In this document: one piece after another, positions 9,239 through 27,725 of the stretch
Layout of the letters: the number at the start of each line of letters is the position of its first letter
How positions within the stretch are numbered: position 1 is the first letter of the stretch
Program-made: the position numbers and the translations under genes
Virus record (IMG/VR): IMGVR_UViG_3300025697_000094
Span: 1-31,654 of that record
Origin: a virus
Direction: 5' to 3' (one strand)
Length of the DNA: 31,654 nt
Notes under the pieces: generated by a model
What the model was told of the DNA's origin: nothing
The model's input: only the letters and a program-made list of their open reading frames with translations
The model's database searches: none

Positions 9239-9828
9239 CTTTGCAACTCCATAGTCTTGACATCCACGCGGCGGCTGGCGCAGTAGTCGGCGAGGTGTAC
9301 AGTTTCACGCACCTGGTTGGCACGCCACTCACCTGACTCCGGCGGCGACGATTTCCAGTTCGGACACGTCCACCTGCCCATATGATATGCGATGCCGTCG
9401 AGCACCATGCCTAGTAGCTCCGGTACGTCCGCGCCAGGCGGGAACTTCCGCATCAGGATCTCCGAGGCCAACACTGTACCGTGGATATTGACGCAGTTCT
9501 TCACAGTGGCCTGGCCATTCACCAATTTGCCCCCGTTCTTCTTGAGGTCATGCAGAATCAACGCCGCGATCACGACGTCATGCTCGTCCTGACGCCAGTC
9601 CTCGGTGCGCATCAGTTCAATGCCCCACCACACAGCCAGCTTAGTGTGGCGGATAAGACCGCCGTCACCGAGTGACACCTGTGGGTGGTAGCGGCCTGAC
9701 GTGGAGGCCGCGCACGTCCAGAAATAGTCTGGAGCCATGGTGTTGATGACGTCGATCACGAAGTCACGGATGGTGCTATTCTTGATCAGGCTTAACTCTT
9801 CTCTGAATACTACTGTTGCCTCTGGCAT
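9235..9828 (-). CDS. HD-domain phosphohydrolase
   Basis: I choose ATG 9828 (MPEATVVF, 197 residues) because GGGAGGA lies about six bases upstream; a longer reading from 9855 has no such site. HD-superfamily signatures are visible: RH at 60-61 (GGLIRHTK), HD at 93-94 (ALILHDLKK), H116 (NIHGTVLASE), H149 (AYHMGRW) and D181 (VHLADYCAS). These form the usual metal-binding set. HD enzymes cleave phosphate esters such as dNTPs, cyclic nucleotides or 3' RNA ends. The order resembles YhaM-like or dNTPase-like HD proteins, and the substrate cannot be read from sequence. The HNH gene upstream supplies its ribosome binding site and overlaps it by 19 bases. A nucleotide-pool role fits the MazG-like gene at 25954. 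Confidence 0.85.
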   Translation of the reverse strand: MPEATVVFREELSLIKNSTIRDFVIDVINTMAPDYFWTCAASTSGRYHPQVSLGDGGLIRHTKLAVWWGIELMRTEDWRQDEHDVVIAALILHDLKKNGGKLVNGQATVKNCVNIHGTVLASEILMRKFPPGADVPELLGMVLDGIAYHMGRWTCPNWKSSPPESGEWRANQVRETVHLADYCASRRVDVKTMELQR

Positions 9829-10343
9829 TCTACGTCCTCCCATAAATGTTTCCAAGTCCGATGCTGTACAATATCGGTAGCACAGCTGCGGGATACGTTG
9901 TATGCTTTCGCAAGGTGTGTAATGGTTAAATGGCGCGTATGGCCCACTTGTTCAATTTCTCTAGCCTCACCATCTGTTAACTTGGCGAGTGGGTGATTTT
10001 CGCCTTTACGGCGCAATCCCGGGTGTGTCCCGTGCCCCACAGCGTCTAAGTGGTTGTTAGACCTTGTATCCCACCGTAGATTGTCAACCCTGTTATCTAG
10101 CCGGTCACCGTTGTTGTGACAACACTCCGTACCCTCGGGACAGGGTCCGACGAAGGCTTCCAAGACTAGGCGGTGTATAAGACGCCAGTTGTGCTTACCT
10201 GCACAGCATAAATCCACTCGCAAATATCCGGCATGCGCTTGCGGGGACAACCACCTACCCCTGCGAGCATTCCTCCTAGGCTCACTCCACACTCTACCAT
10301 CGCGGGTGATGGAGTATCCAGGGTACCCTGGTATTGGTCTCAT
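9810..10343 (-). CDS. NUMOD4/HNH homing endonuclease (copy 1)
   Basis: This 177-residue free-standing homing endonuclease has three parts. NUMOD4 covers residues 2-45 (IPGYPGYSITRDGRVWS). The HNH nuclease core lies at 55-91, with H57, H76, N77 and N84 in the IHRLVLEAFVG and ECCHNNGDRLDN motifs. A helix-turn-helix DNA-recognition part lies at 113-165 and ends TWKHLWED. The ATG overlaps the RecG stop by four bases (ATGA). The last codons (TGG GAG GAC) provide the ribosome binding site of the HD gene, whose ATG lies 19 bases before this gene's stop. It belongs to a paralogous set with the genes at 12283, 25313, 27156 and 30740. It looks intact. Confidence 0.92.
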   Translation of the reverse strand: MRPIPGYPGYSITRDGRVWSEPRRNARRGRWLSPQAHAGYLRVDLCCAGKHNWRLIHRLVLEAFVGPCPEGTECCHNNGDRLDNRVDNLRWDTRSNNHLDAVGHGTHPGLRRKGENHPLAKLTDGEAREIEQVGHTRHLTITHLAKAYNVSRSCATDIVQHRTWKHLWEDVECQRQQ

Positions 10344-12304
10344 CCGACATCCCCCAAGTGTAGCACGCCGCCATATCGCGACTTGAGCTCGGATAGGTTC
10401 GCCACACGTACGGGGTCATCCGCATCTAGGCACAGCACTGTAGCAGCCGCTGATCGGGCCTCAATCATTAGGTCAAAATCTTCAACCATGTTTGCTATCC
10501 TGAAATTCGGGAGACCGTGCTGCTCCGTGCTTATTAGGCTCCCCGGGCCACGCATCTTGAGGTCTTGTTCAGCTAGTAAAAACCCATCGTTGGTCTGCTC
10601 CATTGCCTTGAGCCGGGCCCGCCCCTCACCGTTCTCGGTATCAGAGAGGAGGAAGCAGTACGATTGCTTGTCACTGCGCCCCACGCGGCCACGCAACTGA
10701 TGGAGGGTGGCGAGGCCAAAGCGCTCTGCCCCCTCCACGACCATCACCGTAGCGTTGGGGTTGTCGACGCCTACCTCGATAACCGTGGTGGCTACCAGTA
10801 TCTGGAACGTCTCGGCCTTGAAGTCGTCAGCGACCCGCTTCTTATCTGCCGGGTGCATCTGGCCATGTAGCATGCCGACACCCGCACTAGGGTATCTACT
10901 TCGATACTCCTCGACAACTTCCTCAACTGCCCGCATCTCGTCATCAAGGGCCTCGATACGTGGGCAGACGACGTAGACTTGGTTGTCGTGCTCAAGTTCG
11001 TATTCAACACGGGCGTGGATATCCACCACGTCGCTTACCCACTCTGTATATACGGGCAACCGTCCCGGCGGCATTGTCTTGATCACGCTCACATCCAGGT
11101 CACCGAACGCGGTCATTGCAATGGTGCGGGGGATCGGCGTAGCCGACATAAGGAGTACGTGAGGGTTGCCGTGCTTACGCAGGGCCGCACGTTGCTCGAC
11201 GCCGAATTTATGTTGCTCATCAATGATGGCTAAGCCAAGGTTGCAAAGCTGTAACCCGTCACTGAGTATCGCAGTGGTCCCTATAACAACATCAGGGTCA
11301 CCCGCTACCCGTTTATCCGGGCCTACCGAAACCTTGGTGAGCCCGCCCTGAACCAGGCGGCACCTCATCCCCGCCGCATCAAAGAACCCCTTGATCGACC
11401 GATAGTGTTGCTCCGCGAGCACCTGTGTGGGGCACAGGATGGCAGTCTGCCCGCTGTTGCAAGCCATCAGCATGGCAGCGTAGGCGGCAACAGCTGTCTT
11501 GCCTGATCCGACGTCCCCTTGCAGTAGGCGGTTCATGGAGCCACGCTGGCACATATCAATTAGTACCTGTCTGGTGGCCCCCAGTTGATCTGGTGTAAAA
11601 TCAAACGGGAAATACCGTTCCGGGTCCTGCATCATCGGCACACACTTCACGTTCGTCGGCTCCAACTCTCGCCGCTGCTTCCGCACGGCCAGGGCCAGCT
11701 GCATGTAGAACAACTCGCAGTACTTCTCGTGCTGCACTGCCCTGTCATACTCTGCCTGATCAGCCGGATTGTGTAGGGCCCGTACAGTGTCGTCAGCTAG
11801 GTGCAGCGTCAACTTAACAAACCGGCTGATCTCCCTGCTCGTGATACCGCTGGTCACCGGGTATGTCACCATGCGTAGGTCAGACAGGTTGGGCTCGCCT
11901 TTCATCGGCAGCGTGCGGAACTCTGGGTTGACGAGCCCCCCAGGGGCTACGGTACCCGTGGCCATGATGCGGATGTTCTTATGGAGTTTAGCGTGCAGGT
12001 AGGCTGCATTGTACCATGTGATAGAGATGATGCCGCCCAGGTCGCTGTTGAGTATGCCATCAAACTTACCACTATACTGCCCCTGCACATAGCTAAGTGT
12101 ACCCACCACAGTCACCTGGTCACCATACCCTATGGTAGCCAGCGGGACAGGCTCCGGCGCAAACTCCACCCGCGTGGGGTAGTGACTCTGCAGGTCCTTC
12201 ACGGTTTCTATTCCGAGCCGCTTGAGGGCTTTGGCTTTTCTAGGGCCAACACCAGTAAGGCCAGCCACGGGTGATTTAAGAGTTAATTGTGTAGATGTCC
12301 CCAT
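10340..12304 (-). CDS. recG: RecG-type ATP-dependent DNA helicase
   Basis: The 654-residue product is nearly the size of bacterial RecG (E. coli, 693). It has a helix-hairpin-helix-like GVGPRKAKALKRLGI at 18-32, an OB/wedge region at about 50-150, Walker A GDVGSGKT (263-270), DEQH box (362-365), SATPIPRT motif III (387-394), motif V (TTVIEVGVDNPNAT, 506-519) and motif VI QLRGRVGRS (536-544). The C-terminal RGPGSLISTEQHGLP matches the RecG translocation (TRG) motif. RecG reverses stalled forks and branch-migrates Holliday junctions. All helicase motifs look intact. The start ATG 12304 has GGGGAG four bases upstream, inside the overlapping HNH gene. It is flanked on both sides by HNH genes. A full-size RecG is uncommon in phages. 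Confidence 0.93.
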   Translation of the reverse strand: MGTSTQLTLKSPVAGLTGVGPRKAKALKRLGIETVKDLQSHYPTRVEFAPEPVPLATIGYGDQVTVVGTLSYVQGQYSGKFDGILNSDLGGIISITWYNAAYLHAKLHKNIRIMATGTVAPGGLVNPEFRTLPMKGEPNLSDLRMVTYPVTSGITSREISRFVKLTLHLADDTVRALHNPADQAEYDRAVQHEKYCELFYMQLALAVRKQRRELEPTNVKCVPMMQDPERYFPFDFTPDQLGATRQVLIDMCQRGSMNRLLQGDVGSGKTAVAAYAAMLMACNSGQTAILCPTQVLAEQHYRSIKGFFDAAGMRCRLVQGGLTKVSVGPDKRVAGDPDVVIGTTAILSDGLQLCNLGLAIIDEQHKFGVEQRAALRKHGNPHVLLMSATPIPRTIAMTAFGDLDVSVIKTMPPGRLPVYTEWVSDVVDIHARVEYELEHDNQVYVVCPRIEALDDEMRAVEEVVEEYRSRYPSAGVGMLHGQMHPADKKRVADDFKAETFQILVATTVIEVGVDNPNATVMVVEGAERFGLATLHQLRGRVGRSDKQSYCFLLSDTENGEGRARLKAMEQTNDGFLLAEQDLKMRGPGSLISTEQHGLPNFRIANMVEDFDLMIEARSAAATVLCLDADDPVRVANLSELKSRYGGVLHLGDVG

Positions 12305-12810
12305 CGTTCTCCCCGTAGTATCTTCCCGATTGTCTCCCGGCGTACTCCGGTTAGTCTAGCCAGGACATATTGTGATACTCTGTATTTTTCCCTAGCGTCA
12401 CGCACTGCACGTACCTGTACGGCAGTGAGAGTAGCCCGCCCATTCTGCTCACCTTGTGCTCGTTGGATCCTGCTACCTGCCAATGGGCACGTCCCATGCT
12501 TAACAGCATCTTTCATATTATTAGAGTGAGTATCCCACCTCAAATTCTCAATTCTGTTATCAGCAGGATTACCATTGTTGTGGCAACACTCCATACCATC
12601 AGGGCGGGGACCTACGAATGCTTCAAGAACTAGACGGTGGATATACCGATTACACCTTACACCATAGCGGCGGAGGCATACGAACAGGTGCCCGCTATCT
12701 ATACGCTTGGGTTTAAGGTATCGGTTCGACAGGGCGGACCACACGCGACCATCCGTGGTCACGTAGTAATCCTTAAAACCTGGTGCTCGGCAGTCATCTG
12801 GTGTAACCAT
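12283..12810 (-). CDS. NUMOD4/HNH homing endonuclease (copy 2)
   Basis: This 175-residue protein has NUMOD4 (PGFKDYYVTTDGRVWSAL) near its N-terminus and an HNH core with IHRLVLEAFVG and ECCHNNGNPADNRIENLRWD. The C-terminal helix-turn-helix begins near ATLTAVQVRAVRDAREKY and ends ERWGHLHN. The ATG lies 11 bases past the stop of the lipoprotein gene, with GAGGT upstream. Its last 22 bases overlap recG: the GGA GAA codons give the recG ribosome binding site, and the CGA TGG codons contain the recG ATG. Nothing suggests inactivation. Confidence 0.92.
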   Translation of the reverse strand: MVTPDDCRAPGFKDYYVTTDGRVWSALSNRYLKPKRIDSGHLFVCLRRYGVRCNRYIHRLVLEAFVGPRPDGMECCHNNGNPADNRIENLRWDTHSNNMKDAVKHGTCPLAGSRIQRAQGEQNGRATLTAVQVRAVRDAREKYRVSQYVLARLTGVRRETIGKILRGERWGHLHN

Positions 12811-12821
12811 CTAGCAGTACC

Positions 12822-13484
12822 TCACGCATTCTTGGCCGCAGTAACAGCGGCGGCTGTGTCCTTGGACTGTGACTGCAGGAAGGACTTTAGGAACTCCACG
12901 GCCTCCAGTCTACTGGGTTCACCAGACTTCTTACAGGCTGTCTTGAACTGCTGAACGCCTTTGACAACCTCGACAAACTGCTTCTCCTTCTCACCAAGCT
13001 CGACGCCGACCTCAGCCAGTGCAGTATCCACTTCACCCTGCTCCCAGTCACCCGGTCGCTTACGCAGCAGGCCAATCACACCACCAGCTGACAGGCCGAA
13101 CACGCCTAAGCCCGCAGCGAGCAGACCAGAGGTTGGGTCGAAGATGGCTGCTTCCATAGCGACCGCCTCATTGACGCTGCGCTCCATGATGCCTTGTAAG
13201 ATGCTGGCATCAAGCTGCTCTGTCTGCATCATGTGGTCGATGACAAGCATGTTGACCTCGTGGGCCGCGAGCACCTGTACCTTGAGCTTTCTGACCTTGT
13301 AGAGGTTGGCATAGCCGCCGTAGTCATTGGGCTCAGCAAGCCCGGCTTCCACGACGTAGTCGACGGCCTGTTGATCAATGGACGCGGGTGTCACGTATTC
13401 AGACAGGGCGGCACACCCGACGCCCAGGGCCATGGCAGCCACGATGACTACCAACAATAGTGTCGTTACGATCTTGCGTATCAT
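12822..13484 (-). CDS. Predicted lipoprotein / membrane protein
   Basis: This 220-residue protein has a classic signal sequence: MIRK, then a hydrophobic core at residues 5-22, then GVGC with Cys24. The tripeptide before Cys is GVG rather than the usual L-A/S-G/A lipobox, so lipidation is possible but not assured. A second hydrophobic stretch at 118-141 (Gly-rich) could be a transmembrane segment followed by RKRPGDWEQG. The remainder is helical and charged. GAGGAG lies just upstream of the start. It is odd between replication genes; possible roles are superinfection exclusion or a membrane anchor for replication or lysis. No family is recognised. Confidence 0.72.
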   Translation of the reverse strand: MIRKIVTTLLLVVIVAAMALGVGCAALSEYVTPASIDQQAVDYVVEAGLAEPNDYGGYANLYKVRKLKVQVLAAHEVNMLVIDHMMQTEQLDASILQGIMERSVNEAVAMEAAIFDPTSGLLAAGLGVFGLSAGGVIGLLRKRPGDWEQGEVDTALAEVGVELGEKEKQFVEVVKGVQQFKTACKKSGEPSRLEAVEFLKSFLQSQSKDTAAAVTAAKNA

Positions 13485-13502
13485 GCGATCTCCTCACTTG
13501 AA

Positions 13503-13610
13503 CTACATTTCAATAAAACAATCACTGCCACAGTTGGGGCACACCTTGTAGCCTTCGTCATCCACATCGGGGTACGCAAACTCTTGTGAACAATCAAGGC
13601 ACTCATACAT
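13503..13610 (-). CDS. 35-residue zinc-ribbon mini-protein
   Basis: The frame starts at ATG 13610 with GGGGAG five bases upstream and ends at TAG 13503. The product starts MYECLDCSQEF and ends VCPNCGSDCFIEM, giving C-x2-C (residues 4, 7) and C-x2-C (27, 30), spaced as in a rubredoxin-like zinc ribbon, plus a further Cys34. It sits between the primase-helicase and the lipoprotein genes with the same tight spacing. A structural zinc site is likely. Its partner (nucleic acid or protein) cannot be determined. Confidence 0.75.
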   Translation of the reverse strand: MYECLDCSQEFAYPDVDDEGYKVCPNCGSDCFIEM

Positions 13611-13619
13611 AACGCTCCC

Positions 13620-15887
13620 CTAACAAAGGTACTGTTCCATAGCACTAGGCAGGATCTGCAAGCCCTCGTATATATACTCACGCTTACCCACATTCATAAC
13701 CCGCTTACGTGCCAACGGGTGCGGCAGACCCTGCAGCTTCATACCAAACGCGATGCGGCTGAGGTTGCTGCGGGTGCCCGTCGCAGTACACCAAGCCAGC
13801 CACACCTCGTACAGGGTGTTGCAGTTGGTCTGGTGTTGGAAGAACTCGGCGCCAGCGTATCGCTTACAGCACTCACTGATCATCAGGCCGATGGGGTTGG
13901 TGAGTTCAGCTATGCCGTCGAGGTGTCTGCGTGACGCGTCGGGCAGTGTGAACTCATCGTTCTCCAGTAGACGCCGCAGGCCTTCTATGGCCCACAACGC
14001 TATACCCGGCAACTCTGTCATCAGCTTGCTGTCCAGCGTGCGATCAGGCCTGTTGAGCCTGTAGTTGTTCGAGAAGTACAATAGGTTGGTACGGCCAGCC
14101 ATCGCCTGGCTGGCATCGTCAAATGGCAGCACCTCGTTGGCGATATACATCAAGCGGCAGAACAACCTGGCGTCAACAGCCGCCTTATATAGCCGCCGCA
14201 CACTCATTGTGTCACCACCTGTGATCGCCTTCCACGTCTGCAACAGCTTATCAATGTCGCCCCGGTTGGTATCGCGGCTCTCTGACATGATGGCCACGTA
14301 CTTGTTGAGCAACGCAGCGGGGCCAAACACATCCTTGAAACTGTTGGTGTTGGCACCAGTGGTGCGGGCTTTGCCGAGTAAGGCTTCGATAACCCGGCCC
14401 ACTGTTGACTTGCCTGATCCCGGGACACCGAAGAAAAACATCATCGACTGCATGTGGTTGGAGGCGATCATACAGTAGCCCATCCACTCTTGCAGTAGGT
14501 CAATGCACTCCTGATCCCCGTTGAATATGTCAGCGACGAACCACTCCCACAATTTGCACACCGCATGCGGGTCATAGTTGTATGGCAGTGTTGTGGTCAA
14601 GAAAATGTCCGGCGTCATGGGGACAAGTTGTCGCTCCTTGACATAGTAGATACCATTGTTGAACACGACAGCACGGGCCAAGTCCATGCTCTTACCCGTC
14701 TTTAGGATCAGTGGCTCGTGTGCAGCTTCGTCCGCGACGATGTTACAATAGGCCTTGGCCGCGTCTGTGATGTTGCCCATGAACTTGACATCGGGCTTGA
14801 TCTCCACGATCTTCGTACCATCCTTAGCAGGCGTTGCAATTTGTCGGGAGCCGTACCACTCATACCACCAGCCGCGTAGCTCTGCCTTGCTGATCATGCG
14901 GTACTTGTTGACGTCCCACTGGTAGAAGTCATCGTGCAGACACTGGATGATACGCTGTCCCCGATAGACCTGGCAGTCCTGAACCCATGCCCGCACCATG
15001 TCATACGGGGCGTCACTGTCCAGCACCAGCGTGTCTTTGCGGGAGTCGCCTACCCCCGTGACGTGCTGCTCGAATATCTCTGCAGTGGGTGCCCAAGACC
15101 GCAGGTCCTTAAACGGCTCGGGTGGTAGTACCTTCACTACCGTTTTACAAACTGGCAGCAGCGTTTGAAACAGGCCTTCAAGGCTCGCCTGACCGACGCC
15201 ATGGGCGTCACGGTCTCCGACGATGATAACTTCACGGCCCGACACCAGCCCGGTGAGGGACGATGCTCCCGCACCCGCTTGCGGTATACTGACCGCAACG
15301 TAACCCAGCGAGATCGCAACCAGCGCATCAGACGCACCCTCAGTAATAACAGTAGGCCTATCCGATGCAGGTAGTACCTGTACTCTCCGTCCTGTACCGC
15401 CAGTACCGGTGTGCCTGTGATGTAGGTACCCAGAACCCGGAATCTGCTTCGCTGCGCCAGTGGGCGTTCGTACGCATATGACCCCAGCAGGGTTCTCGGG
15501 GTTTTCGTTAGAAACCAGGCACCCATCATTTTCCCGCCCGCAAATTGGACATGGCACCTCTGCAGCACTGACCCGGAGAAAGCTACGGGCTTCCACTGAT
15601 CCATCCTTCTGTCGTACTCCCAGACATTCATAAGACAGCCCTCTCTTTGAACCCTTCCACGCCAACTTCCTGCCATTCTCATACCGTTTAGTAAGCCCGG
15701 TCACCTTACCCGTTTCATCTCGCTCAGGGAAAATCCACGCATCCTCATCAGGGTAGAACCCCACACCGAGTTTGTCTATAGCTTCCACTGTCACCGCCGG
15801 GCCAAGCTGCTCAGCCAAGACTTCTGCCATGGCTGGTCGCATGTTGGCCCGCAATGATATGAATAAGTTGTCGAAGTCCACGGGCAT
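13620..15887 (-). CDS. Toprim primase / SF3-type helicase (D5-like)
   Basis: This 755-residue replication protein has its start at ATG 15887, with GGAG six bases upstream. Its parts in order are: a zinc motif, CPIC (113-116) with C123 and C138; a Toprim primase core, with E183 in TEGASDALVA and DRD at 225-227; a D5-type linker region; then an SF3-like AAA+ helicase with Walker A GVPGSGKST (487-495), an acidic IMSESRD motif (533-539) and a downstream sensor Asn in MYIANEV (580-586). Such fusions both prime and unwind DNA at phage forks, partnering here with the family A polymerase encoded upstream in the same transcript. All key residues are present. It is immediately followed by the zinc mini-protein gene. 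Confidence 0.93.
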   Translation of the reverse strand: MPVDFDNLFISLRANMRPAMAEVLAEQLGPAVTVEAIDKLGVGFYPDEDAWIFPERDETGKVTGLTKRYENGRKLAWKGSKRGLSYECLGVRQKDGSVEARSFLRVSAAEVPCPICGRENDGCLVSNENPENPAGVICVRTPTGAAKQIPGSGYLHHRHTGTGGTGRRVQVLPASDRPTVITEGASDALVAISLGYVAVSIPQAGAGASSLTGLVSGREVIIVGDRDAHGVGQASLEGLFQTLLPVCKTVVKVLPPEPFKDLRSWAPTAEIFEQHVTGVGDSRKDTLVLDSDAPYDMVRAWVQDCQVYRGQRIIQCLHDDFYQWDVNKYRMISKAELRGWWYEWYGSRQIATPAKDGTKIVEIKPDVKFMGNITDAAKAYCNIVADEAAHEPLILKTGKSMDLARAVVFNNGIYYVKERQLVPMTPDIFLTTTLPYNYDPHAVCKLWEWFVADIFNGDQECIDLLQEWMGYCMIASNHMQSMMFFFGVPGSGKSTVGRVIEALLGKARTTGANTNSFKDVFGPAALLNKYVAIMSESRDTNRGDIDKLLQTWKAITGGDTMSVRRLYKAAVDARLFCRLMYIANEVLPFDDASQAMAGRTNLLYFSNNYRLNRPDRTLDSKLMTELPGIALWAIEGLRRLLENDEFTLPDASRRHLDGIAELTNPIGLMISECCKRYAGAEFFQHQTNCNTLYEVWLAWCTATGTRSNLSRIAFGMKLQGLPHPLARKRVMNVGKREYIYEGLQILPSAMEQYLC

Positions 15888-15903
15888 ATGTCACTCCACG
15901 ATC

Positions 15904-15938: not shown

Positions 15939-16796
15939 TTAGAGGGCGGCGTCGAACGCAGTCTTGATACCAGACCAATCGTCACCGACGGCCTCATCGC
16001 CCCCGGCAGCCTTAATCAGAGTCGTCCAGATCTGCGTGGTTTCAACATCGGTCTTGCCCGCCTTGTTTCCGGCAGTGAAGCACTGCTCCCATGCTGTCCG
16101 CATGTCAATGGGCTTGGCAGCCTTGGCTCTCCTGGGTTTGGCAGGCTTCGGCGCTGCAGGCGAGGCAGCGGGGGGCGGAACGAGGGCGGCTGCAACCTGG
16201 TCATCTGTCGGCGGGGCAGCAGCTGTCGGGGGACCAGCCGGTGCCGCAGGTTCCTGCGTGGGGGCAGGCGTGGCCGGCGGGGTGGGGTCCGTCTTCGGCG
16301 TAGCCTTGGGGACCGACTTGGGCTTGGGCCCGCCGCTCAGAGCCTGCAGGCCCGTCGCAAACTTCGCCTGTAGCCGCTGAACATCCGCCTTCCCAAGTTT
16401 CTGTACCCGCTTCCCGGGTACGGCATCATAGTGGTCAATCCACTGACACCGGATGGTAGTGTTCTCCTCGTATGTGTTTTCCTCCATACGCCACTGGATC
16501 TTCTCGCTGAGTTTCTCGTTCTCCTGAATGTCCAGGAAGGCCACACCGTCCCAGCCTAGGGCTTTCATCAACTGACGGGCACTCAGCGTGGACTTACCGC
16601 TCTTGCCGAAGAGGATCAGATACGCAATGGCCTCGATCTCTTCATAGGCCCACTCAACCCACACGCCGTTCTCTGCATCCCACATCTCAGCTGCTTCCAG
16701 CTGTAGGATTGCTTGCGGGAAACCACCGGATGATTCACCGACGCCCCGGTCCACGATCTTGCCTCTGAAACTACCAATCCTGTCGATCTGCGCCAT
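15939..16796 (-). CDS. Probable DNA metabolism protein with Pro/Ala linker (SSB-like partner of the Sak4 ATPase)
   Basis: This 285-residue protein has a folded N-terminal domain (1-150) starting MAQIDRIGSFRGKIVDRGVGESSGGFP, with alternating beta segments and EENTYEENTTIRCQWIDHYD. A long Pro/Ala/Lys-rich linker (155-235) follows, then an acidic C-terminal helical domain (240-285). The plan of an OB-like domain, a flexible linker and an acidic tail resembles single-strand-binding or recombination mediator proteins. It lies directly downstream of the Sak4-like ATPase, where phage SSB-type proteins are common. I do not recognise a named family, so the SSB idea is inference. GGAG precedes the ATG. 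Confidence 0.65.
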   Translation of the reverse strand: MAQIDRIGSFRGKIVDRGVGESSGGFPQAILQLEAAEMWDAENGVWVEWAYEEIEAIAYLILFGKSGKSTLSARQLMKALGWDGVAFLDIQENEKLSEKIQWRMEENTYEENTTIRCQWIDHYDAVPGKRVQKLGKADVQRLQAKFATGLQALSGGPKPKSVPKATPKTDPTPPATPAPTQEPAAPAGPPTAAAPPTDDQVAAALVPPPAASPAAPKPAKPRRAKAAKPIDMRTAWEQCFTAGNKAGKTDVETTQIWTTLIKAAGGDEAVGDDWSGIKTAFDAAL

Positions 16797-20029: not shown

Positions 20030-20508
20030 AGCAATCCCATCTCCAGGTCCTCAACGTTACGGGCCAGTATATACAACCCCCCGTTAGCCTCAATATTTGC
20101 CTGGAACTTTATTTGTTTGGCAGACTGCCGTCCGGTCGCGCTCTTGCACTCGACGGCTAGGAATCGCCCACCGGATAGCAGGCCAATTATGTCCGCTGAC
20201 CCCGGATACCCGAAGCTCACGGGCTGTCCGCCCGACCAAAGTGTCCCACTGTTGTTCCGCCATGAGTATATCCCCTTCTTATGCAGCAGTTTAAGACAGT
20301 CATGTAGGACCGTGGACTCTCTGTCTTCCTTCGCGGCTCGCTTACGTTTGCGTGTTCGTGGGGTGGGCGCTGACACCGTTGGCACAGGAGGTACCGACAC
20401 GCCGGTACGTCGTGCCCGTGCGGTGGCTGCGATGAGAGACCCAAGCGGCTTCGCAGCCTTCGCAAGTTTTGATCTGTCGACGGCATGTTGCTTGTTACCC
20501 CTAACCAT
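20026..20508 (-). CDS. VRR-NUC domain nuclease
   Basis: The 160-residue product has a basic N-terminal tail (1-60, including TRKRKRAAKE) and a VRR-NUC fold at 65-150. Visible active-site residues are D106 (YPGSADIIGLL), E120-x-K122 (FLAVECKSA) and Q132 (KQIKFQ). VRR-NUC proteins are PD-(D/E)XK-type structure-specific nucleases; stand-alone phage copies act as Holliday junction or flap nucleases. Its stop overlaps the methyltransferase start (ATGA). A resolvase role fits the neighbouring Sak4-like and RecG-type proteins. Confidence 0.9.
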   Translation of the reverse strand: MVRGNKQHAVDRSKLAKAAKPLGSLIAATARARRTGVSVPPVPTVSAPTPRTRKRKRAAKEDRESTVLHDCLKLLHKKGIYSWRNNSGTLWSGGQPVSFGYPGSADIIGLLSGGRFLAVECKSATGRQSAKQIKFQANIEANGGLYILARNVEDLEMGLL

Positions 20509-20743
20509 TACCTTCTATCTCCGCGATATGCACTGTCAACCCGCACGCATCACAATACAGATAGTGACTCCAGTTTTTACGCTCGTAGTCGCGGCCCGGG
20601 GTACATGCAGACGACAGTACTTCATCCAGCAGGTGAATACCGCGCGGGCACATAAGTCGCTTCCATATCCGGCGGACCCAAGACAGTGACGGCGGGTATG
20701 TTATACCGTGGTACTTCTGCTTTACTTCTCGAATCGGTCGCAT
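20501..20743 (-). CDS. Hypothetical small protein with C-terminal cysteines
   Basis: This 80-residue protein starts at ATG 20743 with GGAGG eight bases upstream; its first 22 bases overlap the end of the polymerase gene. It is basic (11 Arg/Lys in the first 40 residues). Cys32, Cys47, and Cys64-x2-Cys67 in LYCDACGLTVHI suggest a zinc site formed with a nearby His. It overlaps the VRR-NUC gene by eight bases. No family is recognised; DNA binding is plausible from charge and the metal motif. Confidence 0.7.
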   Translation of the reverse strand: MRPIREVKQKYHGITYPPSLSWVRRIWKRLMCPRGIHLLDEVLSSACTPGRDYERKNWSHYLYCDACGLTVHIAEIEGNG

Positions 20744-22945: not shown

Positions 22946-23141
22946 TGCCAGTTGCCTCCACATATTCCGTTGCTGTTATTTCCTTAGCCCAAAGTATGAG
23001 GATGCCACCGTCCCTCACACTATCAGTCGCATTCTTCCACCATGTGACAAGGGTACCGCACGTACGTATACAGGTCGTCTTGGTGTACTCATCTCGGCTG
23101 ATCATCCCAAAGGACCTGTAAGTGACTATGTAGTAGTGCAT
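22935..23141 (-). CDS. Hypothetical protein, 68 residues
   Basis: ATG 23141 follows GAGGT at about seven bases and overlaps the upstream gene's end by 16 bases. The product starts MHYYIVTYRSFGMISRDEY and then shows TCGTLVTWWKNATDSVRDGGILILWAKE, a beta-helix-beta pattern that suggests a compact alpha-beta fold. Two cysteines occur at 24 and 28. No motif identifies a function. Confidence 0.6.
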   Translation of the reverse strand: MHYYIVTYRSFGMISRDEYTKTTCIRTCGTLVTWWKNATDSVRDGGILILWAKEITATEYVEATGNGR

Positions 23142-23629
23142 GCAGGCACCTCGATCCAGAAACCATGCCGCAGGTCACCCTCAACGCTACACTGCGTCAA
23201 GACCTGTGACAGCTTCAACTTGTTGCCGCGAGCATCAGTCATGGCAAGCATGCTCTCGATGTCCTTCATGTACTGTCTGATGTGGTGTTCGTTCTCGTTG
23301 CCAGTCAAGACCAGCTTCCAGTACAACTGTATGATCCACGACAGCCGGGTGTAGAGACAGGCGAGCGCCGCTCCCTTGTCCCCCACTAGGTTAGGACCTA
23401 TAGTCTGGTACGGCAGCCTGCTCGGGTCACACGTACCGCCCGGCTTGACCACGCTTTTGAACTTGACTAGCATCTCCCGCCACCCCGGGGTGTCGGTGAC
23501 CCGCAGCAGGTTATCCAGCATGGTGCGGATATCAGTACCCAGCCTGTCGTTGCGTATCTTCTCCTGGGCCCCGGCAAATAGAGGTGCCTTGGGCACTGGT
23601 GGTACGGTGGGTGGGGGTGGGATTTTCAC
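23126..23629 (-). CDS. Hypothetical protein, GTG start
   Basis: The frame extends to an ATG-like start at 23671, but a GTG at 23629 lies six bases after AGGAGG and directly follows the previous stop, so I take GTG 23629 (167 residues, VKIPPPPTVPPVP). After the Pro-rich start, residues 20-165 are mostly helical (GTDIRTMLDNLLRVT, YTRLSWIIQLYWKLVL, RQYMKDIESMLAMTDARG). No signal peptide, metal site or catalytic motif is recognised. It may contact replication proteins, given its position upstream of the polymerase. Confidence 0.7.
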   Translation of the reverse strand: MKIPPPPTVPPVPKAPLFAGAQEKIRNDRLGTDIRTMLDNLLRVTDTPGWREMLVKFKSVVKPGGTCDPSRLPYQTIGPNLVGDKGAALACLYTRLSWIIQLYWKLVLTGNENEHHIRQYMKDIESMLAMTDARGNKLKLSQVLTQCSVEGDLRHGFWIEVPACTTT

Positions 23630-23630
23630 G

Positions 23631-23840
23631 TCATACCTCCTGGTAGTATTCAACATCAGCCATACTAGCACCGTTTTTTAACAGCCAGTCCGTGAATGAC
23701 TTCCACTTGGGGCCCACGCGTAGCCACTCAAGGTATTTACTGTGCATTTCATCCAGTGACATTGCGTCCGGTACTTTCACGTGGTCCACACTGGCATCAG
23801 CCCAGTCACCGCCACCCAGTATTGCTATTGTTCTGCTCAT
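23631..23840 (-). CDS. Hypothetical protein, 69 residues
   Basis: The start ATG 23840 (MSRTIAILGGGDWADA) directly follows AGGAGGGAGAG, a very strong ribosome binding site, so longer readings are rejected. The second half (MHSKYLEWLRVGPKWKSFTDWLLKNGA) is helical and rich in Trp and Lys. Its end (CAG GAG GTA TGA) supplies the ribosome binding site of the following GTG-start gene. The glycine-rich N-terminus is too short for a nucleotide-binding fold. Function unknown. Confidence 0.72.
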   Translation of the reverse strand: MSRTIAILGGGDWADASVDHVKVPDAMSLDEMHSKYLEWLRVGPKWKSFTDWLLKNGASMADVEYYQEV

Positions 23841-23854
23841 CTCTCCCTCCTGTA

Positions 23855-24037
23855 TTACAACTGCACCACAGTAGGGTGGATTACGGTTACTTTCCCGCAG
23901 GCCGGGCACACATGACGGAACCTCCGGGTTATCACCATATGGTGCGGGGGTTCGTGCCCGGGGTGGCGACAGTACGATTCAGTGGCGTCGGGCTGTGCCC
24001 ATTCAGTTGGCTCCCTACCATACTCGGACGCATTCAT
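23855..24037 (-). CDS. Small zinc-binding protein
   Basis: This 60-residue protein starts at ATG 24037 after AAGGGAT. It carries a Cys/His set: CRHPGHEPPHH near residues 23-33, then VCPACGKVTVIHP near 43-55. The C-x2-C pair with the preceding Cys/His residues suggests a zinc ribbon. It sits 14 bases upstream of the next gene. The composition and tight spacing support a real gene; the target is unknown. Confidence 0.65.
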   Translation of the reverse strand: MNASEYGREPTEWAQPDATESYCRHPGHEPPHHMVITRRFRHVCPACGKVTVIHPTVVQL

Positions 24038-24040
24038 CTT

Positions 24041-24742
24041 TTATCCCTTAACAAAACGACTCTTGTGGTATTTTTCGCCAACGCCGCAAGGCATGATGTG
24101 GTGGTGTGGCATCCCGTCGATCACCACTGCGGCAGACAGGATTGGGCGTGACCTCATGTGTTTTCCGTACGCAAATTGAAAGGCATCTACATCGATTCCG
24201 CAGCCGACATCCATACCGAACGTACGTTGTCTCGGGTTCGCCCGCCACTTGACGCCGCTCTGACTATGGCAGTGGCCCATACAAACTGACATCAGAAGAT
24301 CCTTCATCGCATTGAATGCCGGGTACATACCCGAGCGGCCGGTGCCGTGGAAGTAGTACACGTCATCAATGATGACATCATCCACCCACTTCCACGTCTT
24401 TGTCTTCCACACCTCGTTGTAGTCGCGGATGTATTTGGCCGGGATATTCACAGACTCTGCGAGTCTGATTACGCGGGCGTCATGGTTACCCACCGTGACA
24501 GTGGCGTTTGGGAATGCCTTGTACCACTGCTTGATCTGTTGCTTGGCCAGGAGATACTCATCGTCCGGGCCCGGGCACATAGGGTTGGCCGCGTGAAAGC
24601 TGACCGCCTGATGATCCACAACATCACCGATCAGTACTGTAGCATCTGTCTTGTACTTTCGCCGCAGGTCCTTACAGAAGGCCATGTATCCTGGATGCAC
24701 AGGTGGTAGGTGCAGGTCTCCGATCGCGAGTACTTTAGCCAT
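24041..24742 (-). CDS. Calcineurin-like metallophosphoesterase
   Basis: The 233-residue product has the five metal-binding blocks of the family in order: GDLH (8-11), GDVVDH (39-44), GNHD (85-88), FHG (131-133) and GHCHS (156-160). These bind two metal ions and hydrolyse phosphomonoesters or diesters. Phage members range from protein phosphatases to nucleases and the substrate is not visible here. GGAG lies eight bases before the ATG, and the start overlaps the HAD gene's end by eight bases, so both phosphate enzymes are co-translated. It looks intact. Confidence 0.92.
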   Translation of the reverse strand: MAKVLAIGDLHLPPVHPGYMAFCKDLRRKYKTDATVLIGDVVDHQAVSFHAANPMCPGPDDEYLLAKQQIKQWYKAFPNATVTVGNHDARVIRLAESVNIPAKYIRDYNEVWKTKTWKWVDDVIIDDVYYFHGTGRSGMYPAFNAMKDLLMSVCMGHCHSQSGVKWRANPRQRTFGMDVGCGIDVDAFQFAYGKHMRSRPILSAAVVIDGMPHHHIMPCGVGEKYHKSRFVKG

Positions 24743-25316
24743 CAGTGCGTCTCCGAGTATTGAATGCCTTGTGTACCACGATCCGGGCAGCCACCCACTC
24801 CTCCGTTTCTAGGGCCCGCCTGTAGTCATCATTCCACCACCTCGGAACGAGTATCGCATTGCCCCCCGCGTCACGCCACCGATCCACGTTCTTGGACGAG
24901 TCATCAATCAGCACCGAGCCCGGTGTCCTGGCCAGCGTTTCCTTGGGTGCCGTCATTATGATAAGTTGCTTTTCCAACCCCGGTATGTTTTTCCGCACCC
25001 AGGCAACCTTACCGCTGGCCGACATGCAGTTTGGCATCGGCGTTGTCAATAGCCGGACGTTCTCCATGCCGAAGGCGGCTACCACGTGAGCGAGGATTGC
25101 TTTGCCATCGTGCATCCACGGGAGGTCATACCACAGGTCGAAGTCACATAGGGCGTCAATATCCTCAAATGACTTGCCGATCTCGTTGTGCCAGTGCCAC
25201 CCGCGACGGCCCAGTTTATATGGCCACGTCTTGTAGTCATGTTCTATGCCGAGCCGTGCGTGTACGCCCGCGTTCCAGGAGGCTAGAACACCGTCAATAT
25301 CGAGCCATGCAATCAT
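24735..25316 (-). CDS. HAD-superfamily nucleotidase-like phosphatase
   Basis: I choose ATG 25316 (MIAWLDIDGVLASWN, 193 residues), five bases after GGAGG; the ATG-like start at 25328 lies upstream of that site. HAD motif I is D6-x-D8 (LDIDGV), motif II is T91/T92 (LLTTPMPN), motif III Lys is K125 (APKETLA), and motif IV is D138-D139 (VLIDDSSKNVDRW). The plan matches 5'(3')-deoxyribonucleotidases, which turn dNMPs into deoxynucleosides. Together with the MazG-like and HD enzymes it suggests active control of the nucleotide pool. Its ribosome binding site lies inside the HNH gene upstream. Confidence 0.85.
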   Translation of the reverse strand: MIAWLDIDGVLASWNAGVHARLGIEHDYKTWPYKLGRRGWHWHNEIGKSFEDIDALCDFDLWYDLPWMHDGKAILAHVVAAFGMENVRLLTTPMPNCMSASGKVAWVRKNIPGLEKQLIIMTAPKETLARTPGSVLIDDSSKNVDRWRDAGGNAILVPRWWNDDYRRALETEEWVAARIVVHKAFNTRRRTDG

Positions 25317-25810
25317 ATACTCCTCCATATAGAAGCGTGTCGCTCCCTATTTATAATCTGTGATACTTTCTGCTGATGTACCCCGTACTGCTCCCCAACT
25401 TCTTTCTGGGTGAACAGCCCGGTCTTATAGGTGTAAATCATCTGTCGAATTTGCTGCTCAGTTAATTTGCAGTTAGTATGACCCGGCCCTTGCGGCCACG
25501 TCCCGTGCTTCTGTGAGTCTGCTCTGTTTGCCTTTCTTGTATCCCACCTCAGGTTCTCAAGTCGGTTGTCGTCGCGGTCCCCATTGTTGTGGCAACACTC
25601 CATACCGTCTGGGCATGGGCCAACATAGGTTTCCAGGACCAGGCGGTGGATCATACGGGGGCGTGACCTACCATCCCTGCGGAGCACAACAAATAGATAC
25701 CCGGCACCGCATCTACCGGCTTTCAATACCTTACTGGATCTGTCAGAGTATACAGACCCGTCCTCGCCTATGTGGTACCCCATAAAATCTGGTATAGGTG
25801 TCCGAGTCAT
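25313..25810 (-). CDS. NUMOD4/HNH homing endonuclease (copy 3)
   Basis: This 165-residue protein has NUMOD4 (IPDFMGYHIGEDGSVYSDRS), an HNH core (IHRLVLETYVG, ECCHNNGDRDDNRLENLRWD) and a C-terminal helix-turn-helix (LTEQQIRQMIYTYKTG to YGVHQQKVSQIINR) ending ASIWRSI. The ATG lies about 12 bases after the stop of the 44-residue membrane peptide gene, with GGGAG upstream. The final codons TGG AGG AGT ATA TGA contain the ribosome binding site and, by a four-base overlap, the ATG of the HAD gene. It appears intact. Confidence 0.92.
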   Translation of the reverse strand: MTRTPIPDFMGYHIGEDGSVYSDRSSKVLKAGRCGAGYLFVVLRRDGRSRPRMIHRLVLETYVGPCPDGMECCHNNGDRDDNRLENLRWDTRKANRADSQKHGTWPQGPGHTNCKLTEQQIRQMIYTYKTGLFTQKEVGEQYGVHQQKVSQIINRERHASIWRSI

Positions 25811-25822
25811 GTCGCGCTCCCA

Positions 25823-25957
25823 TCACATAAACAGTAGTGCTTGAACTGTAGCCAGCAACAGACTCGCGGCACCTGTCCGTACCTTGCCCTCCCATAGGTC
25901 AATCACCCCAAGTAGGACGAAGGACGCCACCATGGTGCAAAGGGCTAGGCGTCTCAT
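25823..25957 (-). CDS. 44-residue membrane peptide
   Basis: The ATG overlaps the MazG-like gene's stop (ATGA) and the frame ends TGA at 25823. The product begins MRRLALCTMVASFVLLGV, continues through a short polar stretch (IDLWEGKVRTGA), and has a second hydrophobic run (SLLLATVQALLFM). This gives two short membrane spans or a hairpin with positive charge inside. It lies just before HNH copy 3. No family is known to me. Confidence 0.6.
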   Translation of the reverse strand: MRRLALCTMVASFVLLGVIDLWEGKVRTGAASLLLATVQALLFM

Positions 25958-26448
25958 GGGCGTGCGTCCTCACCCACCTGCGTGAAGTCATCGGCCTTGG
26001 CTGCACCCGCAAGCCGCTCAATGATCTCCTTGGCCTTAGCGTTGAGCCGCCCTGTGTCCAGCCCGCTCGGTAGCCGGGGCGGTCTATCATCGACCCAGTT
26101 CTCCATCAGCTGACCGTCGCGTAGCACCACCAGGCAGGCTATAGCCTTGATGATGTGGGGCAGCCCGCTGGCGGGGTCAGTGCTTTCGCCCTCCCAGAAG
26201 GCGTCGATATGTCGCCGGGCCGCGTCATAGTAGACCGATGCACGTACCCCAGCCACCCGATAGTTGTGTCCACCATACTTAGTGGCACCCTCCAGCATGG
26301 CCAGGCCAAGCTCGAAGACCACAGGGGCGGACACATAGTGAACCGGCGATTTCAGCACGCCGATGGAATCCTTGGGGTTGGTTTCCTTGCGGTCTAGCGT
26401 CTCAGTAAGCCCCGCTGCATATGTTGCCGCGTCTATCGAACTATCCAT
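25954..26448 (-). CDS. MazG-like dATP/dGTP diphosphohydrolase family protein
   Basis: I choose ATG 26448 (MDSSIDAATY, 164 residues) because GAGGAG lies about eight bases before it and no such site precedes the ATG at 26463. The key motifs are NPKDS (24-28), KYGGHNYR (57-64), VYYDAARRHIDAFWEGE (72-88) and DPASGLPHIIKAIACLVVL (91-109). I recognise these as the family annotated dATP/dGTP diphosphohydrolase, N-terminal (formerly DUF5664), an all-helical relative of MazG. Related MazZ proteins remove dGTP in phages with 2-aminoadenine DNA. Here it may bias dNTP pools; the substrate is inferred from the family. Confidence 0.82.
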   Translation of the reverse strand: MDSSIDAATYAAGLTETLDRKETNPKDSIGVLKSPVHYVSAPVVFELGLAMLEGATKYGGHNYRVAGVRASVYYDAARRHIDAFWEGESTDPASGLPHIIKAIACLVVLRDGQLMENWVDDRPPRLPSGLDTGRLNAKAKEIIERLAGAAKADDFTQVGEDARP

Positions 26449-26463
26449 CTCCACACTCCTCAT

Positions 26464-26892
26464 TCAGAAAATAATGTCGTTGTCTCCAAGCGACGGCTCG
26501 GGCATACCAGGTTTGTCAAGTGATACCATGTGCGCCAGGTTAGGCAGCCCCTGCCTATTACGCGGATCACGCTGCAGTGACGGCAGCAGTCTGCGCGTGC
26601 GGTCCAGGGATATACGTATTTCACCCACCGTGAGGCCTAGCTGCTCTGCAATCTCACCCATAGTCCACGCTGGGTAGTTGATGTAGATCTCGCAGTCCTG
26701 GAGGGTCAACTCCACTGGCGGGTTCGTCCATAGGCGCGGTCTGATCCCACACCACCCCTTCCACTCCGGCTTACAGCACCCGCTGCTCTCACGCCCCACT
26801 GCGACCGCGTCACACTCCTCCTGAGTGATGCGGCCGCTGGCCACACACTTGTCGAGGAACTCCTGTGATAATTTGTCCTCTTCCGCTGACAT
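26464..26892 (-). CDS. Helix-turn-helix protein (sigma-region-4-like)
   Basis: The 142-residue product has AGGAGG just before its ATG. Residues 70-105 (YPAWTMGEIAEQLGLTVGEI then RISLDRTRRLLPSL) form a clear helix-turn-helix of the sigma70-region-4/phage-packaging regulator style. Upstream is a cysteine-bearing segment (SGCCKPEWKGWCG), which could bind metal. The C-terminus is Pro/Gly-rich. It might regulate transcription or package DNA (small terminases use similar folds). Position among early genes favours regulation; no specific family is recognised. Confidence 0.68.
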   Translation of the reverse strand: MSAEEDKLSQEFLDKCVASGRITQEECDAVAVGRESSGCCKPEWKGWCGIRPRLWTNPPVELTLQDCEIYINYPAWTMGEIAEQLGLTVGEIRISLDRTRRLLPSLQRDPRNRQGLPNLAHMVSLDKPGMPEPSLGDNDIIF

Positions 26893-26928
26893 TGGTCCTC
26901 CTACATACAGTCACGTTTGTAGCGTTCC

Positions 26929-27171
26929 CTAAAGTGTGGGGATCGCAGGGATTTCTACTTCCGATTGCCCGGATATCTCACGTTTGATCTTGTCGGACCA
27001 CTCACTGGGGTGCCGGGTAATCTGCCTTTTTACATGGCTCAGTATCTGCTCTTGTATACGCTTGCTAATTTCGTATGCCCTGGACAGCCCGTGCGTAGCA
27101 ATTAGAGCTGTACTTGTTGTGGTTGCTATTCTGTGAATTGGTATATCTGTAGCGGCTAGTTTCTTGCCCAT
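26929..27171 (-). CDS. Hypothetical protein, paralogue of the gene at 27741
   Basis: The start is ATG 27171 (MGKKLAATDIPIHRIATT), five bases after GGAGG; that site lies inside the upstream HNH gene's last codons. The 80-residue protein shares its first 39 residues with the gene at 27741: both read (L/V)A-x-(T/A)D-(I/L)PIHR(I/V)ATT-x-ST-x-LIATHGL-x-RAY. The second half differs, here ending basic and polar (HVKRQITRHPSEWSDKIKREI). The pair looks like a tandem duplication split by HNH copy 4. Function unknown. Confidence 0.72.
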   Translation of the reverse strand: MGKKLAATDIPIHRIATTTSTALIATHGLSRAYEISKRIQEQILSHVKRQITRHPSEWSDKIKREISGQSEVEIPAIPTL

Positions 27172-27725
27172 AGGTGCCTCCAAGTTTGGTGTAGGGCAAT
27201 GTTAGAGATAGTCGATTTGCTGGTGTGGTAAACTTCCGCCAGGTCTTTACGGGGTATCCCGGCGCGTCGAAGGTACTCAATCCAACGCACTTCCGTTTCG
27301 GTGAGGGTGGTGTTACCGTGTTGTTCGCCTGTAGGTCGCACTAAATTTGGACTAAGGAGACTACAGGTCCCGTGTTTCACGGCATCCCGGGCGTTCCCTT
27401 TTCGCATGTCCCACCTAAGATTTTCGGCTCGGTTGTCTGTCTTGATCCCGTTGTTATGACAGGCCTCCATACCGGGTGGGCAGGGGCCAACGAAAGTCTC
27501 TAAGACTAGGCGGTGGACGTTTTTATTGGTGTGTTTTCCATCTGTGCATAGCGTAACCCTAGGGTAGCCACACCTATCATTACCCGCTCTTAGCCACCTG
27601 CCATGGATACTGCACCCTGTGCCCCGACGCGGCTTAGACCACACGCGCCCGTCATTGGTGATCTCATAATCAGGAAAGCCCCCGATAGGTACAGCTACCT
27701 GCATATGCCGCTTTCCCCAGATCAT
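27156..27725 (-). CDS. NUMOD4/HNH homing endonuclease (copy 4)
   Basis: This 189-residue protein is read from ATG 27725, seven bases after GGAGG. NUMOD4 (GGFPDYEITNDGRVWSKPRR) is followed by the HNH core (VHRLVLETFVG, EACHNNGIKTDNRAENLRWD) and a C-terminal helix-turn-helix (LTETEVRWIEYLRRAG to YHTSKSTISNIAL) ending TWRHLWARN. Here the second core residue is Ala-Cys-His rather than Cys-Cys-His. The codons TGG AGG CAC CTA TGG hold the ribosome binding site and ATG of the next gene; the overlap is 16 bases. It lies between two paralogous small genes. Intact. Confidence 0.92.
   Translation of the reverse strand: MIWGKRHMQVAVPIGGFPDYEITNDGRVWSKPRRGTGCSIHGRWLRAGNDRCGYPRVTLCTDGKHTNKNVHRLVLETFVGPCPPGMEACHNNGIKTDNRAENLRWDMRKGNARDAVKHGTCSLLSPNLVRPTGEQHGNTTLTETEVRWIEYLRRAGIPRKDLAEVYHTSKSTISNIALHQTWRHLWARN

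Follow-up and report, generated by a model that had tools for sequence, protein, structure and literature searches.

The sequence considered here, hereafter the window, is a 31,654-base virus record with a GC content of 56% (IMG/VR record IMGVR_UViG_3300025697_000094), whose minus strand carries five HNH_3 homing endonuclease reading frames found in a profile search of the window proteins. All five copies score above the curated cut-off for HNH_3 and two of them, copies 1 and 4, also for NUMOD4. The copies stand between separate reading frames, and an Rfam search over the window at gathering scores, introns included, gave no match; they are free-standing genes located outside any intron or intein. 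Comparison of these and related genes with empty sites suggests that such genes likely take over the start codon position and the leader of the gene downstream and supply that gene with a replacement ribosome binding site.

HNH genes and their downstream neighbors in the window

All features described below are on the minus strand. HNH copy 1 (9810..10343, 177 residues, HNH_3 and NUMOD4) starts in a 4-nucleotide (nt) overlap with the recG stop and has the tail TWKHLWEDVECQRQQ. The gene downstream, named HD by the first-pass annotation (9235..9828, phrog_5889, no Pfam match), starts 19 nt within copy 1, and its Shine-Dalgarno (SD) region in the copy 1 tail is ATGGGAGGACGTAGA (9829..9843, computed free energy of anti-SD pairing, dG, -10.2). 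HNH copy 2 (12283..12810, 175 residues) is followed by a gene for a recG-like helicase (10340..12304), the first seven codons of which are HNH-tail DNA read in another frame and the SD of which, ACGGGGAGAACG (12305..12316, dG -8.1), also lies within the tail. Downstream of HNH copy 3 (25313..25810, 165 residues) is the gene of a HAD-family 5'-nucleotidase (NT5C, 24735..25316), with the SD TATGGAGGAGTAT in the copy 3 tail (25317..25329, dG -9.3), and downstream of HNH copy 4 (27156..27725, 189 residues, HNH_3 and NUMOD4, tail TWRHLWARN) is a small gene starting MGKK (26929..27171), with the SD TTGGAGGCACCT in the copy 4 tail (27172..27183, dG -9.3). HNH copy 5 (30740..31105, 121 residues), which has a TTG start and is devoid of a tail domain, is separated from the next gene by 332 nt; it lacks the feature, which is thus found in four of the five window HNH genes.

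The first-pass annotation had claimed overlaps of 19, 22, 4 and 16 nt between copies 1-4 and the start of the next gene, with the neighbor's SD held within the last HNH codons. Both claims are borne out by the coordinates (the HNH stops end at 9810, 12283, 25313 and 27156 and the next ATG codons are at 9828, 12304, 25316 and 27171, respectively) and by the computed anti-SD pairing, which ranges from -8.1 to -10.2. The SD and spacer read TGGGAGG-ACGTAGA-ATG at copy 1, CGGGGAG-AACG-ATG at copy 2, TGGAGG-AGTAT-ATG at copy 3 and TGGAGG-CACCT-ATG at copy 4. It was also proposed that in copies 1, 3 and 4 the SD falls on the conserved Trp near the end of the recognition domain. A Trp is indeed part of the SD in copies 1, 3 and 4, but it is not one conserved residue: it is the last W of TWKHLW in copy 1, the W of ASIW in copy 3 and the first W of TWRHLW in copy 4, while the SD of copy 2 contains no Trp and encodes R-G-E directly before RW.

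Occupied and empty sites in close relatives

Queries with the recG, HD-like and HAD genes retrieved two close relatives, IMGVR 3300025669_000138 (relative A) and 3300031227_000244 (relative B), in which the sites corresponding to borders 2 and 3, occupied by an HNH gene in the window, are empty or decayed. In both relatives the gene upstream of recG ends with GCG TGA, and TGAGGAGTTTGAC(A/C)T stands before the recG ATG. In the window, the sequence before HNH copy 2 is GCGTGAGGTACTGCTAG (12811..12827); its part GCGTGAGG, common to the recG leader of A and B, now leads to the HNH gene, and the recG start lies within the tail of copy 2, the N-terminus being unlike that of either relative. The copy 2 leader and the recG leader of relative A agree at 23 of 32 positions with gaps. 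At border 3, relative B has TAAGGGGAACGAGAC before the HAD ATG and the window has TGATGGGAGCGCGAC before the ATG of HNH copy 3, which occupies the position of the HAD ATG of relative B; the two leaders are identical at 25 of 30 positions, and the probable ancestral HAD leader, GATGGGAGCGCGAC (25811..25824), now stands before the HNH gene. The HAD gene of the window starts from TGGAGGAGTATATG within the HNH tail. Relative A has at this border a 68-codon open frame in which the first ~22 codons of the HNH gene are joined to its last ~42, the nuclease core being missing, and the HAD start still lies within the tail of this decayed frame.

Such an alignment with relatives lacking the endonuclease was the check suggested by the first-pass annotation. 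At borders 2 and 3 it points to the arrival of the present SD together with the endonuclease gene, the ancestral leader being now upstream of the HNH gene; the other two borders are less informative. Relatives A and B provided no empty site for border 1, where B likewise carries an HNH gene, in an ATGA overlap with the HD-like gene, and A holds a different reading frame without an HNH match. The last codons of HNH copy 1 are HD-gene DNA. At border 4, a different upstream frame of A and B ends with TGGAGGG before the MGKK homologue, which makes the origin of the SD ambiguous. Copy 4 is flanked by two similar small genes, 26929-27171 and 27741-27998, which share PIHR.ATT.ST.LIATHGL.RAY, and its insertion may be linked to their tandem duplication.

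Two further HNH genes are present in A and B at places without an HNH gene in the window. The leader of the one in relative B (locus L015) shares AAGTA(A/G)G(A/G)GAACAC with the leader region of the window gene 15939-16796, and the putative new SD, GAGGAG, overlaps and follows the HNH stop. The one in relative A shares its start codon and seven codons with the window gene 20501-20743; since this gene was not found adjoining the HNH gene in A, and a third frame is present at the same codon in B, the site appears to be a partial case of takeover.

The border between recG and its upstream gene holds yet another frame in the virus 3300013133_002208 (L008:3438-4007, methyltransferase-like with an ADPPW motif, by eye), at the site that is occupied by HNH copy 2 in the window and vacant in A, B and locus L007.

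Occupied and empty sites in named phages

In phage Gutmeister an empty site reads TAACGG ATG CTC ATT CCA GTA GCA GGT, which is the beginning of a resolvase gene. In Rexella the occupied site reads TAACGG ATG CTC ATT CCA GTT GTT, which is the beginning of an HNH gene, and at the other end of this gene, CACCTATGAAGATAAGTGTTGCAGGT, the resolvase restarts in the HNH stop. The two leaders match at 29 of 30 positions. The HNH leader of JWAlpha is identical (30/30) to the leader of the RuvC-like gene of Axy04, and the HNH leader of RHph_N3_13 is identical (30/30) to the DUF3310 leader of I3_11, a phage that carries other inserts farther upstream; in RHph_N3_13 the DUF3310 gene starts from AAGGAGATTTGGAAACATG within the HNH tail and has a different N-terminus. 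The old leaders at the Rexella and JWAlpha sites have no good SD, and thus the start position and the coupling appear to be what was taken over there.

Phage T7 provides a further case. The start of gene 8 is preceded by AACAGGAGGTGACAC in CICC 80001 and by GAGGAGGACTGA in T3. In T7, TCAGGAGGTTATC leads to the HNH gene 7.7 and gene 8 starts at ACATGGAGACACATTTAATGGCT, with the last codons of 7.7, TGG AGA CAC ATT TAA (K-T-W-R-H-I), lying in the gene 8 start region; HZ2R8 has TGG AGG in place of TGG AGA. The 7.7 leader matches the gene 8 leader of CICC 80001 at 28 of 30 positions in HZ2R8 and at 25 of 31 with one gap in T7, and the computed gene 8 SD weakens from -11.6 in CICC 80001 to -6.4 in T7. 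The T7 sequence used here comes from the record of an engineered T7 and is 100% identical to AY264774 over 1141 bases; gene 8 is annotated as head-tail adaptor or connector, and "portal" is our word for it.

Altogether nine sites were compared, and since they were picked for having relatives, the seven apparent takeovers among them do not amount to a rate. The takeover is clear at window copy 3, Rexella, JWAlpha, RHph_N3_13 and T7 7.7, good at window copy 2 and weak at relative B L015; one further site is partial and one contrary. At these seven of nine sites, in the window at borders 2 and 3 only, the insertion thus seems to have displaced the ancestral signal. The new leaders of the neighbors match the old ones at 14-19 of 33-38 positions with gaps. 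The idea of the first-pass annotation that the selfish gene brings along the SD of its neighbor is supported at borders 2 and 3, in T7, Rexella, JWAlpha, RHph_N3_13 and, more weakly, in relative B; border 4 is ambiguous, and no empty relative was found for border 1. The putative signal itself is located within the coding sequence of the endonuclease at each of the four window borders and in T7 7.7.

Some downstream genes are hit repeatedly. An HNH gene ends at the start of a ref-like gene, whose homologues are named recombination enhancement nuclease, in 17 of 21 distinct contexts, a share biased upward by the fetching of these loci through HNH genes. In L056 and L122-L124 the ref-like protein has a candidate extension, MAKRGSTYKT or MGKRGSTYKT, that is encoded by HNH-tail DNA in another frame. 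Another recurrent neighbor is a RuvC-like gene, located downstream of HNH genes in Rexella, JWAlpha, nickie, hairong (two successive HNH genes), phiK7B1 and Nican01. The search for an empty relative of the nickie/hairong ruvC site retrieved six records; the four examined, hairong, one of two nickie records, phiK7B1 and Nican01 (ZY21 is not among these), all have an HNH gene before ruvC. A search for relatives of L263 gave two weak records, and one for the ref-like gene in named phages found four records. At seven HNH loci outside the ref-like group, homologues of the downstream gene lacking HNH were too diverged for comparison (one locus being without a homologue shown).

Overlaps with the next gene across the family

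The survey of the family was based on four scans, each contributing up to 80 loci closest to chosen HNH proteins and thus a non-random sample. Together they yielded 284 HNH reading frames. Sequences differing at no more than 18 of 90 positions around the stop were treated as near-duplicates, which left 180 frames, and 123 of these had a usable same-strand gene within 300 nt. Genes were called with our own gene caller, whose choice of start includes an SD term. The next start is overlapped in 71 of the 123 HNH pairs and in 485 of the 1054 other pairs in the same loci (P = 0.017), and overlaps longer than 4 nt are found in 29/123 and 144/1054 pairs, respectively (P = 0.0066). When the HNH gene is the downstream one, 47 of 124 pairs overlap, a number inflated by the assignment of the first start codon to HNH genes. 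Two further scans added 57 and 76 new unique HNH genes, with overlaps in 16/37 and 27/46 pairs (control, 129/316). In the pooled data, 114/206 HNH pairs and 614/1370 control pairs overlap the next start (P = 0.0055), and 46/206 and 181/1370 overlap it by more than 4 nt (P = 0.0009). The enrichment of overlapping starts that the first-pass annotation expected in such a survey is thus present, though modest; the enrichment of embedded SDs is not, as detailed below.

Codon choice in HNH tails

The second line of evidence from the family is independent of gene calling. A W-x-H near the C-terminal end is a protein motif of the family (84/180), and where Trp is followed by Arg in the tail, taken as the last 20 residues of HNH proteins, the Arg codon is AGG in 10 of 17 cases. 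Elsewhere in HNH proteins AGG follows Trp in 9 of 75 W-R pairs (P = 1.2e-4), in other genes in 14 of 257 (P = 4.8e-8) and in the tails of other genes in 4 of 54 (P = 2.7e-5, each against HNH tails). Window copies 3 and 4, both with TGGAGG, and T7 are outside these counts, and some of the AGG cases are mutually related (L254, L261). The seeds of a second sample were chosen among W-R tails, with exclusion of the genes already counted. At the new loci AGG was found in 2/6 tails of the NUMOD kind and 6/10 of the L263 kind, a different HNH subfamily, and AGG or AGA in 14 of 16 tails against 22 of 53 bodies (P = 0.0014). Pooled, AGG follows Trp in 18/33 HNH tails and 21/128 HNH bodies (P = 2e-5). 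Of 27 AGR tails, 20 are followed by a start that opens at least 30 codons and lies 4-10 nt past the Arg codon, against 1 of 5 CGN tails (P = 0.037). Such a preference for AGG is what a dual-coded SD would predict.

For Lys after Trp, the tail counts are 14 AAG and 15 AAA and those elsewhere 830 AAG and 1402 AAA. We also considered whether the two W of TW(R/K)HLW form a fixed cassette of SD plus ATG and rejected this as a general motif, a second W at that position being present in only 5 of 84 WxH tails.

Proposed mechanism

We propose that free-standing HNH_3/NUMOD4 homing endonuclease genes would insert at the start codon, or a few bases from it, of a gene in a packed phage operon. Where genes adjoin with no intergenic space between them, the next start codon may be the harmless place for an insertion, and an insert placed there would inherit the old leader and have to supply a new one. 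The HNH gene would then stand behind the old leader of its neighbor, often exactly at the start-codon position, and the neighbor would restart at a new codon overlapping or abutting the HNH stop, with the SD usually in or directly after the last HNH codons. In proteins ending in W-R-H-(I/V/L), Arg would preferably be encoded by AGG or AGA, so that TGG-AGR reads GGAGR some 5-8 nt before the next start. At the level of sequence, the takeover of the leader at the sites listed above, the replacement signal and the codon bias are apparent. Ribosomes would presumably initiate at the new starts, with termination and initiation being coupled, and the genes are presumably active in homing. Careless loss of the HNH gene would likely cost the neighbor its translation start, which may favor retention. 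The HNH cassette seems to be one without a ribosome binding site of its own in front and with one at the back.

A more far-reaching and only tentative version, to which we give somewhat less than an even chance, is that the cassette is a translation relay: the SD at its back would be dual-coded in the C-terminal W-R-H, making insertion at a start codon nearly neutral, and imprecise loss would destroy the start of the neighbor. If this is true, the relay is a translational counterpart of the promoters embedded in T4 endonuclease genes, and gene 8 (portal) of T7 depends on an HNH frame.

Alternative explanations

A number of observations weigh against start-codon takeover as a property of HNH genes, and most of them are accommodated by an explanation whose chances we consider to be not far from even, namely generic packing: without intergenic space, inserts fit only at stop/start junctions, any upstream gene holds the SD of the next one, and nothing is particular to HNH genes. 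In the window, where pairs were counted on our own gene list, the SD is inside the upstream gene in 4/5 HNH-led and 15/32 other pairs among 37 same-strand neighboring pairs (Fisher P = 0.34, or 0.11 for 4/4), and the four embedded HNH SDs, strong as they are, do not significantly exceed the other 15 in strength (P = 0.11). The bare window observation does not stand out from chance for this genome, because 15 of the 32 non-HNH pairs share it. In the family survey, an SD before the stop codon is found in 48/123 HNH and 441/1054 other pairs, and a family-wide excess of embedded SDs is rejected. Shuffling of synonymous codons showed SDs in HNH tails to be stronger than expected (mean percentile 0.335, n = 78); ordinary pairs show this effect more (percentile 0.271, n = 300 sampled; P = 0.028), which indicates codon selection at least equal to that in HNH tails and rejects an unusual SD strength in the latter. 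In the new NUMOD set taken alone, the overlaps (16/37) are near the control (129/316) and AGG is found in 2/6 tails and 6/26 bodies; out of sample, AGG alone is found in 8/16 tails and 12/53 bodies (P = 0.057). Finally, the start codon is used by other reading frames at two sites in the relatives, border 1 in A and the polymerase border in B, and so such junctions are not peculiar to HNH genes.

Part of the pattern is thus plain packing, as seen from the control pairs and the other frames at the same start codons. What packing does not explain is the somewhat more frequent overlap of HNH genes with the next start (pooled P = 0.0055, and 0.0009 for more than 4 nt) and the AGG bias of W-R tails, absent from the tails of other genes (4/54). 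The AGG/AGR choice in a family protein motif and the modest excess of overlaps are, as judged from these counts, the features particular to HNH genes.

It is also conceivable, although we regard it as improbable, that the SD is ancestral to the downstream gene and that the HNH frame ran into the leader of its neighbor. This is what the ref-like start of L049 and L064 looks like, with the HNH tail running into an ancestral start. The comparison of Greg with Hermia is likewise contrary to takeover: in Greg the HNH gene is at the polymerase stop, and downstream of the HNH stop the next gene still has its ancestral SD, GGAAGGAACAAC. The TTG annotated as the start of gene 45 in Greg (L310:1483), which overlaps the HNH stop, is probably wrong, relatives supporting an ATG/GTG ~20 nt downstream. 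The last codons of copy 1, being HD-gene DNA, and the TTGGAGG/CTGGAGG found in A and B at a similar distance before the MGKK homologue fit this explanation as well. The similarity of leaders that underlies the takeover is, in addition, weak at several sites: without gaps, window copy 2 and T7 7.7 give just 9/30 each, and relative B L015 gives 21/38 with gaps and 9/30 without, being confined to the shared stretch given above. A large part of the shared leader belongs to the end of the upstream gene, which is retained and conserved anyway, and some of the SDs are weak (-2.1 for the old and -3.3 for the new one of Rexella, -1.7 for the old one of Axy04). An ancestral SD, however, does not account for the old leader being on the 5' side of the HNH gene at borders 2 and 3, T7, JWAlpha and RHph_N3_13, nor for the poor match of new leaders to old ones (4 to 9/30 ungapped, 15-19 of 33-38 gapped), and W-x-H near the end is a family protein motif.

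Lastly, true domestication, with the phage keeping the HNH gene since coupling sets the ratio of neighbor proteins, would fit the strong SDs at all four window borders but is very unlikely given the patchy presence of HNH genes among close relatives (at border 3, the copy is decayed in relative A and absent from B) and the internally deleted copies of relative A border 3 and of Chanagan, which keeps just both ends of a Greg-type HNH gene. The domestication rule for homing genes put forward in the first-pass annotation thus finds no support, with embedded SDs not enriched, overlaps only modestly so and SD strength slightly below that of ordinary overlaps.

Intein-like inserts in relatives and a further window gene

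The DNA polymerase of relative B has intein-like inserts at L012:7509-8393 and on the minus strand of L334 (reverse-complement 334-1194), and that of relative A has one at L013:1-706, whose start is outside the fetched stretch. The inserts keep the host frame open, start with Cys (CLAAGSPVLTD.., CVAWDTRVLTD..) and end with VIVAN|C or LVHN|C, by eye. Each of the two B inserts contains an HNH frame on the same strand in another frame (7631-8392 and 497-1123; PHROG HNH, E 3.8e-29 and 2.8e-55), and is therefore, judging from these reading frames, an intein-like insert overprinted with an endonuclease. The intein blocks were read by eye, TIGR01445 giving E = 0.047 for one insert and no match for the other. 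An intein-like insert is also present in the Walker A motif of recG of 3300013133_002208 (L008:4780-5720; GDVG|C...TGN|CGKT, by eye; best PHROG match phrog_32482, E 8e-48). The homologue of the window gene 24041-24742 in relative A, a phosphoesterase-like protein, has an in-frame insert after its GNHD motif (L011:4414-5294) that is intein-like by eye, with a Cys start and a TGN end, and has no convincing family match. In the window itself, 25954-26463 encodes a dGTP_diPhyd_N protein (PF18909), the best PHROG of which is labelled as an endolysin that inhibits RNA polymerase, a label that looks misplaced.

Implications and relation to known systems

If correct, start-codon takeover amounts to a concrete rule for the places at which free-standing homing genes can invade densely packed phage genomes and for how the invaded gene remains expressed. 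It also predicts the outcome of deletions, in which either the tail has to be retained or the old leader put back. This is testable in T7, where gene 8 is apparently started from inside the HNH gene 7.7. In addition, annotated starts and N-termini beside HNH genes may be recent endonuclease-derived sequence. Among the open-access titles and beginnings of abstracts searched, most subscription papers being outside this set, there was no description of start-codon takeover by a free-standing endonuclease gene.

Translational coupling is known at ATGA and TAATG junctions, where stop and start overlap. The junctions described here differ from this generic arrangement in that a mobile gene appears to have made them, at a start codon already provided with a leader. 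The only solved relative of the window endonucleases at E up to 0.01 is the HNH homing endonuclease of PDB 1u3e (profile E 5e-18, first 111 of 169 positions), the match covering the NUMOD/HNH part and not the tail. This protein, which we take to be I-HmuI, is intron-encoded, unlike the free-standing genes considered here.

As in the T4 mobA/gene 60 system, an HNH insertion in a phage gene is associated with a translational device, but in T4 translation bypasses a coding gap and here the start would be replaced (PMC3014915). The hidden HNH gene in the methylase of phage ShiLan also overlaps a host gene in another frame, but it is within one host gene and, as far as described, has no detectable ribosome site and no replaced downstream start; it has no splicing motifs either, in which it differs from the overprinted polymerase inserts (PMC11855218). 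The closest parallel is provided by the free-standing seg and mob endonuclease genes of T4, which use upstream promoters and carry the promoters of downstream genes inside their coding region, an arrangement argued to favor endonuclease retention (PMC2988022). In both cases a cassette without a signal of its own uses an upstream signal and carries the one needed by the downstream host gene. In T4 a promoter is the embedded element, and the overlaps described involve the upstream gene (PMC2988022), whereas here it would be a ribosome binding site with a start codon, the old ones having been displaced as judged from the empty sites. We read the present case as a variant of the T4 strategy in which a ribosome binding site is embedded instead of a promoter, and not as a domestication rule.

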